Shown in pieces: positions 33,053-56,016 of a stretch of DNA of 64,000 nucleotides. Within the stretch, counting starts at the first letter, position 1; the number at the start of each line of letters is the position of its first letter. The stretch comes from Rhodospirillaceae bacterium (GTDB lineage Bacteria > Pseudomonadota > Alphaproteobacteria > GCA-2731375). The notes below the pieces were generated by a model. The model saw only the letters and a program-made list of their open reading frames with translations, was not told the DNA's origin and made no database searches. The stretch is taken from NCBI GenBank assembly GCA_018660265.1, contig JABJKS010000001.1, positions 1-64,000 on the forward strand, read 5' to 3'. Position numbers and translations under genes: made by a program.

Positions 33053-33400
33053 ATGACCGATCAAACTCCACTTGAAGGCTATGATGATGACATTCGCAAG
33101 GCCGCGGACGATTTAATTGCGCGTCACGGTTCCGAAGTTGAAAATGCGACCACTGAAAAAATGATCGAAGTCCTCGATACCGGTGCCATGGAAGACGTGA
33201 TTTATTGGTTGAAAGTTCGCCAATGTGTCCGCCAGACCAGTGGCCAGGATCGATATATTCGTCGCCTGCCGGATAAAATTGTCTGGGCCCTGGAACAGGC
33301 GGTGGAACAGGGGCGCAATCAACTGGCGCGTTTATTGGGCGGACTATACAGCGAAGCAAAGGCCGATGAAGATCGACTGCGGCGGGAACGCCGCGGTTAG
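33053..33400 (+). CDS. Small conserved-looking hypothetical protein
   Basis: 115 aa, soluble, highly charged, mostly helical ('DDIRKAADDLIARHG', 'KIVWALEQAVEQGRNQLARLLGGLY', C-terminal 'DEDRLRRERRG'). One cysteine. No domain I can name. Codon use looks like that of its neighbours and the frame is intact, so it is likely real. It is divergent from the DUF2336 gene across a region with phased T-tracts, suggesting specific regulation. Confidence 0.65.
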   Translation: MTDQTPLEGYDDDIRKAADDLIARHGSEVENATTEKMIEVLDTGAMEDVIYWLKVRQCVRQTSGQDRYIRRLPDKIVWALEQAVEQGRNQLARLLGGLYSEAKADEDRLRRERRG

Positions 33401-33571
33401 TGGACGGACTAGTAAGGCCCGTAAAAATTTCTACTTAAAAAATGTTAGGCAATCAGGGCGTAATTCCCAGGAAATGAAAAGATTTCTGGTGGAATTGATC
33501 TATGTCAATGCCCCGGCGACCTTCTGAACATATTCTCTTCACAGATCAGCTGCTTATAAGTTGTCCTCCAA

Positions 33572-33740
33572 ACCGGAATTCGAGCGCCGGTAAATTACAA
33601 CGGAGCAGTAGATGGAAATCGCAAGATTGCCATCGAGAGTCCCCTGGCGCTGCAATCCCCTGCAAGCGCCCGAGGGCTGCGGCCCCCCATCCGCAGCCCT
33701 CAACAATAGGAATGGTCGCGTCGAATACGACGCGGCCATT
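33572..33740 (+). ncRNA. Candidate structured RNA or leader: five consecutive hairpins
   Basis: Five stems follow one another. (1) accgg/ccggt at 33572-33591. (2) gatgg..atc-GCAA-gat..ccatc at 33611-33634, closed by a GNRA tetraloop. (3) ggcgctgca/tgca-a-gcgcc at 33646-33670. (4) gagggctgcgg/ccgcagccctc at 33672-33701, a perfect 11 bp. (5) aatggtcgcgtcg/cgacgcggccatt at 33711-33740, with one G-T pair, then tttcttcgttt. The last stem resembles a terminator. The array ends 87 bp before cobB. It may be a small RNA or an attenuating leader; I do not recognise a named family. A 63-codon frame (33612-33803) runs through it but is probably not coding. Confidence 0.5.
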
Positions 33741-33827
33741 TCTTCGTTTGGGCGGGTCGTCTTGATTTTTGCCCTACTTGCCCTGCTTATACAGGTCTCG
33801 TAAGCTCATTATTGCGGGAGAATGACG

Positions 33828-34592
33828 ATGGCTTTTGCGGATCAGGAAGACGTCAAACGTTTAAGGGAACTTATTGCGGGCGCTGAGAGCGTGGTGATAT
33901 TCACAGGTGCCGGCATCTCCACCGAATCCGGTATTCCTGATTTTCGTAGCCCAGGCGGTCTGTGGACCAAATACCAACCCATAGATTTTCGTGATTTTAT
34001 GGCGTCGGAAGAGATGCGTCGGGAATCCTGGCGGCGTAAGTTTGCCATGGATGCAACCATGAATGCGGCGGAACCCAATAGGGGCCATCGCGCCGTCGCC
34101 CAGCTGGTGGAGACGGGCAAAGCCTCGGCCGTGATCACGCAAAATATCGATGGTCTGCACCAAGTTTCAGGCATTCCCGATCTGCAGGTGATTGAACTGC
34201 ATGGCAACGCAACCTATGCCAAATGCCTGGGCTGTGGGGCGCGGCACGAGCTGGCCCCCATCAAGGAAGCCTTCCTGGCGGATGAGACCATGCCCATATG
34301 CCAATCCTGCGGCAGCGAATACATGAAGACGGCAACTATTTCCTTCGGCCAGTCCATGCCCGAGGATCAAATGACCAGGGCACAGCGGGAAACCCTGGCC
34401 TGTGATCTGTTTATCGCTATCGGATCGTCCCTGGTGGTCTATCCTGCGGCCGGCTTCCCGGTGATGGCAAAACAAAATGGTGCAGGTATGGTAATTTTGA
34501 ACAGGGAGCCGACGGACCTGGATACTCATGCGGACCTCGTTATCAATGGCGAGATTGGCCCTACTTTGGGTGACGCAGTCGCAGTGAACTGA
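33828..34592 (+). CDS. cobB: Sirtuin NAD-dependent protein deacylase (CobB/Sir2)
   Basis: 254 aa from the ATG at 33828, which has GGGAG at seven bases; an ATG at 33822 is too close to it. It has NAD-binding 'FTGAGISTESGIPDFR', 'TQNIDGLHQVSG', the catalytic His in 'IELHGNATYAKC' and four zinc cysteines in 'CLGC' and 'CQSC'. 'GSSLVVYPAAGFP' closes the Rossmann fold. It removes acyl groups from lysines using NAD. The Ala/Tyr/Arg set of desuccinylases is not evident in the 'SPGGLWTKYQPIDFRDF' region, so deacetylase is the default. The hairpin array upstream may affect its expression. Confidence 0.93.
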   Translation: MAFADQEDVKRLRELIAGAESVVIFTGAGISTESGIPDFRSPGGLWTKYQPIDFRDFMASEEMRRESWRRKFAMDATMNAAEPNRGHRAVAQLVETGKASAVITQNIDGLHQVSGIPDLQVIELHGNATYAKCLGCGARHELAPIKEAFLADETMPICQSCGSEYMKTATISFGQSMPEDQMTRAQRETLACDLFIAIGSSLVVYPAAGFPVMAKQNGAGMVILNREPTDLDTHADLVINGEIGPTLGDAVAVN

Positions 34593-53138: not shown

Positions 53139-53309
53139 GAAAAATTGCCTTGGGTGGAGTTCTTTGCCGCACGGGGCCAGGCCCTGGCCGACTGCGCGGA
53201 AGGCAAGGGCGCGCATAAGGTGCTTCAGGAAATCCTGGAACAAGGACGCCAATTCGGCTTACGGATTGCGCTGCCCGAACTGGAAGCGGCATTGGTGCAG
53301 TTGGCCTAG
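53139..53309 (+). pseudogene. Severed C-terminal segment of the cyclase protein
   Basis: In-frame continuation after the amber codon reads 'EKLPWVEFFAARGQALADCA', then 'LQEILEQGRQFGLRIALPEL' and 'EAALVQLA', ending at TAG 53307-53309. This is the normal C-terminal TPR end of such cyclases. No start codon with a ribosome binding site is present, so it is translated only by readthrough or if the stop is a sequencing error. Its stop codon is the first part of the palindromic element. Confidence 0.85.
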
Positions 53310-53570
53310 ACCCCATTCGTAGAATATAGACCCGTTTGACCGTACTTCCCATCGTCGTGGCTAGGCGAAGGGTGCCGATCATAGTGGGACTACGGACAAG
53401 ACCTTCAACGACGCCACGGCGTTGGGAAGCACGGCCTTCGGTGGCGTGTGGAGGCCATTCGGATGCGTTATTTTGCTTGCCCGTAGTCCCACTACGACCG
53501 GCGCAAAATGCCTACCCAAATGGCCTCCACACGCCATCAAACGGACCTATATTCTACGAATGGGGTCTAG
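53306..53570. repeat. 265-bp nested palindromic element
   Basis: Terminal inverted repeats start ctagaccccattcgtagaat at 53306 and end with its complement at 53570, 34 bp with two or three mismatches. A second stem pairs ggcgtgtggaggccatt (about 53442) with aatggcctccacacgcc (about 53519-53535). Short dyads gtagt-ccc-actac and tagt-ggg-acta lie within (53380-53395 and 53481-53495), and cgtacttcccatcgtcgtgg pairs with a segment near 53415-53432. It has no coding capacity. Shape and length suggest a MITE-like or REP-like mobile palindrome with ctag at both ends. Confidence 0.75.
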
Positions 53571-54557: not shown

Positions 54558-55748
54558 ATGAGCGACCAGGATCCTATTGTTATCGTCAGCGCCGCGCGGA
54601 CACCGATGGCCGGCATGCAGGGCGATTTCGCCGCCGTTCAGGCACCGCAACTTGGTGCCGGCGCTATCGAGGCCGCTTTGCAACGGGCGGGGATCAGTGG
54701 CGATGACGTTGATGAAGTCATCATGGGTAACGTTCTGGGGGCAGGCCAGGGCCAGGCACCGGCGCGTCAGGCTTCCAAGGGTGCCGGCATCCCCGATGCG
54801 GTCGGTGCCACGACGATCAACAAAATGTGCGGTTCCGGCATGAAGGCGACTATGTTCGGCCATGATCTGTTGGTTGCCGGTTCGGCAAATGTCATCGTCA
54901 CGGGCGGTATGGAAAGCATGACGAACGCGCCCTATTTGCTGCCCAATGCGCGCGGCGGTATGCGTTTGGGGCATGGGGATGTCAAAGACAGCATGTTTCT
55001 CGATGGCCTGGAAGATGCCTATGACAAGGGTCTGCCCATGGGTGTGTTTGCCGAACAGACGGCACAGCACTATCAGTTCACGCGGGAGCAACAGGACGCC
55101 TACGCCATTGAATCCCTGACCCGGGCCCAGAAGGCTACTGCGGACGGCAGCTTTGCAGGCGAAATTGCCGCCTTTACAGTCAAAGAGCGTAAAGGTGAGC
55201 GGGTTGTGGAAATTGACGAACAACCAGGCAATGCCAATATCGATAAGATCCCGTCATTGCGTCCCGCCTTTGCCAAGGACGGCACAGTGACAGCGGCGAA
55301 TTCCTCCTCTATTTCCGATGGCGCGGCGGCCCTCGTGTTGATGCGTCAGTCTGAGGCGGAAAAGCGTGGCCTAACGCCTATTGCCAAAATCGTCGGGCAT
55401 GCGACCCATGCACAGGAACCGGCCTGGTTCACCACGGCACCAATCGGGGCGGTGAATACATTGTTCGAGAAAACCGGCTGGGATAAAGCAGACGTTGATT
55501 TGTTCGAGATCAATGAAGCATTCGCCGTCGTAACCATGGCGGCCATGAAGGAAATGGGTCTGCCCCATGATATCGTCAATATTCACGGCGGGGCCTGCGC
55601 CTTGGGTCATCCCATCGGTGCTTCGGGAGCACGGATCCTGGTGACGCTGATGGCCGCTTTGCAGAAAACAGGTGGCAAAAAAGGCGTCGCCGCTCTGTGC
55701 ATTGGTGGTGGCGAGGCTACAGCCATGGCGGTGGAGTTGCTGCACTAG
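54558..55748 (+). CDS. Acetyl-CoA C-acetyltransferase (thiolase)
   Basis: 396 aa, full-length thiolase. The nucleophilic Cys91 is in 'TTINKMCGSGMKA', His is in 'EINEAFAVV' and the second Cys/His pair is in 'IHGGACALGHPIGASGAR'. Biosynthetic (PhaA/AtoB-type) length and motifs suit two-acetyl-CoA condensation or acetoacetyl-CoA cleavage. AAAGGAACG precedes the start. It stands between a small STAS-like gene and a repeat-filled intergenic region, ahead of acyl-CoA dehydrogenase on the same strand. Confidence 0.94.
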   Translation: MSDQDPIVIVSAARTPMAGMQGDFAAVQAPQLGAGAIEAALQRAGISGDDVDEVIMGNVLGAGQGQAPARQASKGAGIPDAVGATTINKMCGSGMKATMFGHDLLVAGSANVIVTGGMESMTNAPYLLPNARGGMRLGHGDVKDSMFLDGLEDAYDKGLPMGVFAEQTAQHYQFTREQQDAYAIESLTRAQKATADGSFAGEIAAFTVKERKGERVVEIDEQPGNANIDKIPSLRPAFAKDGTVTAANSSSISDGAAALVLMRQSEAEKRGLTPIAKIVGHATHAQEPAWFTTAPIGAVNTLFEKTGWDKADVDLFEINEAFAVVTMAAMKEMGLPHDIVNIHGGACALGHPIGASGARILVTLMAALQKTGGKKGVAALCIGGGEATAMAVELLH

Positions 55749-55912
55749 AGCATTTCCGACTAGGAAATGCTCCGACTCTTAAGAATCGAGCAATTTTTCC
55801 AATCACTTAGAATCGCAAAGCGATTCTCTTTTGATCGGAATTGCTCTAAAATTCTTGAAAAAAGAGCAATTGAACCTATCACTTGGATCACAATAGTCGA
55901 TCCAAGTGATAG
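55749..55912 (+). repeat. Dispersed intergenic repeat, copy B: three tandem hairpins
   Basis: Stems are gagcatttcc/ggaaatgctc (about 55749-55773), agaatcgc/gcgattct (about 55810-55828) and tatcacttggatc/gatccaagtgata (55877-55889 with 55899-55911, perfect 13 bp). Shared words with the other copies are cttaagaatc-gagca, gagcaatt and ttgctcta. The first hairpin may terminate the thiolase transcript. Confidence 0.7.
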
Positions 55913-56016
55913 AAAATTTCTCTAAATCGTATCCAGGGGAAAACCATTCCAGGGGAAAAATTTGGGCGCATCGGCATACGGGGGATGCCGGACGTCAAGT
56001 ATCTGGAGTATGGCTC

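Follow-up and report, generated by a model that had tools for sequence, protein, structure and literature searches.

The 64,000-nt stretch of Rhodospirillaceae bacterium DNA that we analysed (hereafter, the window) carries a row of hairpins between a 115-aa orphan gene and the sirtuin gene cobB. The initial annotation had described five hairpins at 33572–33740 as a candidate undescribed structured RNA, either a leader attenuating cobB or a separate small RNA. The features now assigned to this locus, all on the plus strand, are as follows:

33053–33400, plus: 115-aa orphan gene, the upstream neighbour (tblastn, 62–74% identity in 7 of 11 other homologue genomes)
33495–33508, plus: FNR/FixK-type box TTGATCTATGTCAA, centred at −41.5 from the predicted start
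33531–33536, plus: −10 element TATTCT, 36 nt from the box start
33543–33749, plus: predicted sRNA transcript, about 205 nt, modelled on its homologues with covariance models R1 and R2; predicted ends, the start from promoter geometry and the end from the terminator
33549–33609, plus: stem 1, a three-part 5′ stem with a layout common to 11 homologues
33611–33634, plus: stem 2, with a GCAA loop in this genome and other loop sequences elsewhere
33639–33645, plus: GUCCCCU, unpaired between stems 2 and 3 (putative seed 1), invariant in 12 of 12 homologues
33646–33670, plus: stem 3, loop AUCCCC (putative seed 2)
33672–33701, plus: stem 4, a perfect 11-bp stem, loop CCCCCCAU (putative seed 3)
33708–33749, plus: intrinsic-terminator-like stem of 15–16 bp with a U-rich tail
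33778–33806, plus: possible separate cobB promoter TTGCCC-N17-TAAGCT
33822–34592, plus: cobB sirtuin gene, the downstream neighbour, outside the RNA unit (Pfam SIR2, NCBIfam CobB and synteny)

The plus strand at 33540–33780 was predicted to fold at −104.8 kcal/mol, whereas shuffled sequences averaged −74.5 kcal/mol (sd 4.9; z −6.2), and none of 200 shuffles folded as low; the minus strand scored more weakly (z −3.2). By GC-corrected fold, the RNA stretch ranked 9th of the 2,554 sliding 170-nt segments on both strands. The five hairpins are thus real and exceed chance, but the first of them proved to be the tip of a longer stem, and the RNA would start about 30 nt earlier than had been drawn. 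The GCAA loop, the perfect 11-bp stem and the T-rich tail were seen as described, whereas the last stem has 15–16 bp rather than 13; it spans about 33708–33743 and is followed by the tail UUUCUUCGUUU. Among homologues, UUUCUU is kept 3′ of this GC-rich stem, as expected of an intrinsic terminator, although the tail is a non-ideal U-run, which counts against the sRNA reading favoured below.

Strong folds also occurred elsewhere in the window. Nested inverted repeats at 53306–53570 (34-nt arms, 94% complementary, plus inner arms), among the strongest, look like a palindromic repeat or a degenerate mobile element. The strongest GC-corrected fold was that of short AT-rich perfect palindromes clustered just past an ORF end at 55745–55920, and an imperfect inverted repeat (CGCTTTACGAAGG / CCTTCGTAAAGCG) at 1–150 folded strongly on both strands.

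Base pairing in the RNA was examined in two alignments of homologues. In the core alignment (A5), 99.0% of cells were paired (100% in stem 3, 99% in stem 4 and 98% in the terminal stem) and 6 of 36 pairs had changed on both sides (one, two and three compensatory pairs, respectively); none of 500 shuffles equalled this, and slid partners were only 38–50% paired. The alignment of the 5′ domain (A6, the R2 alignment), which has diverged more than the core, had 84% of cells paired and both-side changes in 20 of 29 pairs, against 0 of 500 shuffles and 29–55% pairing in slid versions, figures that are biased in favour of the structure because the alignment was fitted to it. This bias is tempered by the finding that the same two-stem layout recurred in each of the 11 full-length homologues when its 5′ domain was folded singly. 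Both-side changes affected 14 of 19 pairs in helices 1–3 (stem 1) and 6 of 10 in helices 4–5 (stem 2), the latter with 89–96% of cells paired. Every full-length homologue fold also contained stem 4 and the terminator. These comparisons demonstrate, at the level of sequence, that the five predicted stems are real and have been kept by compensatory change.

The C-rich segments behaved differently from the stems. While the paired arms vary by compensation, GUCCCCU, AUCCCC and CCCCCAU stay fixed; among homologues, loop 3 keeps CCCC and loop 4 keeps CCCCAU (CCCCAT in the DNA) without variation. Variable paired arms combined with frozen single-stranded motifs are the pattern of base-pairing sRNAs.

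The RNA is a single-copy element in this genome. When 61 genomes were searched at the DNA level, the unit turned up in 10 of 11 members of the genus and also in two further genera within the family; model R1 gave high scores in 12 of 15 genomes of the family, with a weak and partial match in G012. At the cobB loci of G012 and G013, which belong to other genera, the RNA was not found even with filters off. Neither the RNA nor cobB was found in G006, and since cobB is missing there as well, the absence of the RNA probably reflects an assembly gap. Across 385 genomes of the class, R1 yielded beyond the genus and family just weak matches to ordinary terminators, and those in other families were rejected as homologues on that ground. 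Scanning 84,980 species genomes for an exact pattern returned the same family and two further matches (L083 and L088), in one gammaproteobacterial and one planctomycete MAG; neither has the second or the third stem, and both seem to be chance matches. The pattern had no match in viral contigs.

Of all the elements, the FNR box is the most informative, and it lies just outside the interval first annotated. Its consensus, TTGAY-N4-RTCAATG (core TTGAY-N4-RTCAA), stands upstream of the RNA in 11 of 12 homologues, and its half-site columns are 94% conserved, compared with 43% over the 40 nt on its upstream side and 51% across the spacer that follows. A TANNNT −10 element starts exactly 36 nt from the box start in 10 of the 11 box-bearing homologues, which places the box centre at −41.5 and the predicted start at 33543. 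With its centre at −41.5, the box sits where FNR/CRP activators bind at class II promoters. By the geometry of its sequence, the promoter is accordingly of the class II FNR type, with binding and start site as predicted from this layout.

The same arrangement of box and −10 element occurs nine times in the genome, the RNA included, while a reversed control pattern occurs nowhere in it. The other instances precede genes for a NapC/NirT tetrahaem cytochrome, a NirJ-like radical-SAM protein, a second radical-SAM protein, two haemerythrin-domain proteins and a B12-binding-domain protein, another ORF, and a gene that by eye resembles subunit II of haem-copper oxidases/NO reductases and gave no family match. 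The genome encodes an FnrL-like regulator of 251 aa with a CX2CX7C motif and an E-T-V-S-R recognition helix (E-x-x-S-R type), scoring 180.7 bits with the NCBIfam FnrL model, below the equivalog cut-off of 300. A Crp-family protein without the CX2CX7C cysteines is also encoded, and either protein may act on the RNA promoter. In G009 (locus L016), the RNA is kept while the FNR box and the 115-aa orphan gene are lost, and the loss of the box there counts against FNR control; a sigma-70-like promoter, TTTGCA-N16-TATATT, may replace oxygen control there.

The usual gene order in relatives is a divergent DUF2336 gene, the 115-aa orphan (which has a sub-threshold KfrA_N match only), the RNA, an Fe-alcohol dehydrogenase gene and cobB. 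A complete dehydrogenase gene separates the RNA from cobB in seven relatives; in an eighth, the two are set apart by other sequence about 1.2 kb long. Only in this genome and G009 does cobB, whose homology begins at the second ATG (33828), adjoin the RNA; it does so because the dehydrogenase gene is absent from this position in both, and the sirtuin gene thus appears to be a neighbour by chance. In addition, a promoter-like element with exact spacing, TTGCCA-N18-GATNAT, lies between the terminator and the next gene in seven relatives (loci L009, L010, L012 and L014–L017), including G009, where it precedes cobB; its counterpart in the window is weaker.

These observations bear on whether the RNA might be a structured 5′ leader, driven by the FNR promoter, that would attenuate the next gene, mostly the Fe-alcohol dehydrogenase gene and here cobB. 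The RNA lies about 70–200 nt upstream of that gene in the same orientation, and its terminator-like last stem could allow read-through. Against this, the downstream gene varies (dehydrogenase in seven, cobB in two and other sequence in one), a conserved separate promoter follows the terminator, and every stem is itself conserved with no conserved anti-terminator pairing. We therefore regard a leader as improbable, and the proposed link to cobB was dropped: the differing downstream genes and the separate downstream promoter indicate an independent RNA gene. That the region is a gene for a small protein, or an RNA with a dual function, is far less probable still. Open frames of 61–87 aa do overlap the region in the window, but they are interrupted inside the most conserved part: the window sequence has a +1 indel, L016 a −1 indel, and L014 and L017 indels of 9–10 nt. 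The changes in the stems, moreover, are compensatory. Coding potential was rejected on these sequence grounds, in agreement with the earlier view that the structure is unlike coding sequence. REP/MITE palindromic repeats and other mobile hairpin arrays likewise form strong hairpins, yet the single genomic copy, the synteny in relatives and the conserved promoter leave such an origin with next to no probability.

No credible match to Rfam was found at gathering scores across the window or at a relaxed E-value across the RNA region. Together with the conservation and the compensatory changes, this supports the suggestion in the initial annotation of an undescribed structured RNA, and the RNA's own conserved promoter and terminator support that of a separate small RNA. 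An RNA gene with its own promoter is well supported by these sequence data, from which we infer its mechanism and targets. The reading that we favour, and consider probable as a whole, is that the hairpin row is an independent, previously unnamed gene for a small regulatory RNA that is induced by FNR and acts in trans. The sRNA family would be new, although its kind is known, with members found in oxycline/OMZ Alphaproteobacteria of one taxonomic family only.

In the proposed mechanism, an FNR-family regulator would bind the box at 33495–33508 under low oxygen and drive transcription from about 33543; nitric oxide would be an alternative signal if a DNR-type relative acts. The RNA of about 205 nt would fold into its five stems and end at its own terminator, and its three C-rich segments, one unpaired and two in loops, would pair with G-rich ribosome-binding sites, blocking translation of mRNAs that are dispensable without oxygen. 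Hfq, whose gene is present in the genome, would probably assist.

Candidate targets were sought by sequence complementarity. In each of the 11 genomes, the pattern CCAGGGGA-N3..10-ATG was far commoner than a reversed control. Of its 36 matches in this genome, however, only two are clear gene starts, those of coxM and an mlaD-like gene, and the others are mostly antisense to or inside coding sequence; the enrichment was therefore rejected as evidence for targets. The coxM product was identified by eye as the FAD subunit of an aerobic-type CO dehydrogenase. Its ribosome-binding site reads GGCCAGGGGAGGA, which complements the RNA's fixed UCCCCUGG, and is present in 7 of 10 clear orthologues (L204–L213), a conservation confounded by the end of the upstream gene. 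For the cyoE site, just part was conserved. We consider coxM the best single target candidate, as a lead only. As a separate observation, GGCCAGGGGAGGA at coxM is altered in G009, the same genome that is without the FNR box.

The RNA might instead act mainly by binding protein, for instance a C-rich-RNA binder, or as a sponge for another regulator. The repeated identical C-rich loop motifs would fit this equally well, and the target search gave no supported target set. On the other side, the tested alphaproteobacterial C-rich-loop sRNA, NfeR1, acts on ribosome-binding sites (PMC10746234), and we judge action through protein to be unlikely, less so than a leader. A wider role for the favoured base-pairing sRNA is conceivable, although we advance it only tentatively: together with FNR, it might serve as a master riboregulator of the oxycline/OMZ denitrifying clade, shifting cells from oxygen to nitrogen-oxide respiration via G-rich ribosome-binding sites, for example in mRNAs for aerobic CO dehydrogenase and for haem-oxidase assembly.

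The named carriers of the RNA are MAGs whose labels point to the Black Sea at 150 m, Saanich Inlet (SI072), the Caspian at 150 m and Arabian samples, places partly deduced from isolate codes. Most of what is known about riboregulation of the aerobic–anaerobic transition comes from cultured enterics, Pseudomonas, Paracoccus and Rhodobacter. Two carriers, NP113 and BS150m-G9, sit in an "oxycline" clade (GTDB order GCA_002731375), of whose roughly 80 OceanDNA MAGs 74% are from OMZ-like niches; BS150m-G9 is described as a potentially complete denitrifier with a cd1 nitrite reductase (PMC8879329). Such a lifestyle fits an FNR-controlled sRNA. If the favoured reading is true, uncultured marine OMZ bacteria carrying denitrification genes would possess an sRNA family whose promoter logic can be read from sequence. 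The alignment and consensus structure can be used to search existing oxygen-gradient metatranscriptomes, making oxygen dependence approachable without culture.

Among known systems, FnrS has an Rfam model. This enterobacterial sRNA is activated by FNR and, in E. coli, represses mRNAs dispensable without oxygen (PMC8139620). The present RNA resembles it as a predicted FNR-activated sRNA gene with a terminator, but has no Rfam match, belongs to another lineage, and has a different, larger structure with three C-rich segments. NfeR1/alpha-r14 of Rhizobiales displays the same C-rich motif on several stems, the stems diverging while the motif stays fixed (PMC10746234), and thus shares with our RNA an alphaproteobacterial origin and this design. 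Alpha-r14, however, carries CCUCCUCCC in three hairpins, whereas here UCCCC(U) appears in one unpaired segment and in one loop, CCCCCCAU occupies another loop, and two stems lack the motif; its control is by nitrogen stress rather than from an FNR promoter. PcrZ of Rhodobacter sphaeroides is likewise an alphaproteobacterial sRNA with FnrL-linked control, under PrrA and FnrL, perhaps indirectly (PMC8139620); it is probably distinct, as the present RNA had no homologue elsewhere in the class sample. Two further sRNAs are linked to denitrification, DenR of Paracoccus, which peaks under aerobic conditions (PMC6686037), and PaiI of Pseudomonas, which depends on NarXL and probably only indirectly on ANR (PMC8139620); for neither of them has a class II FNR box like that of the present RNA been reported. 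Together, these comparisons suggest that the RNA is closest to FnrS in control and to NfeR1/alpha-r14 in motif design, and, judged by the features compared, it would be a member of neither family.
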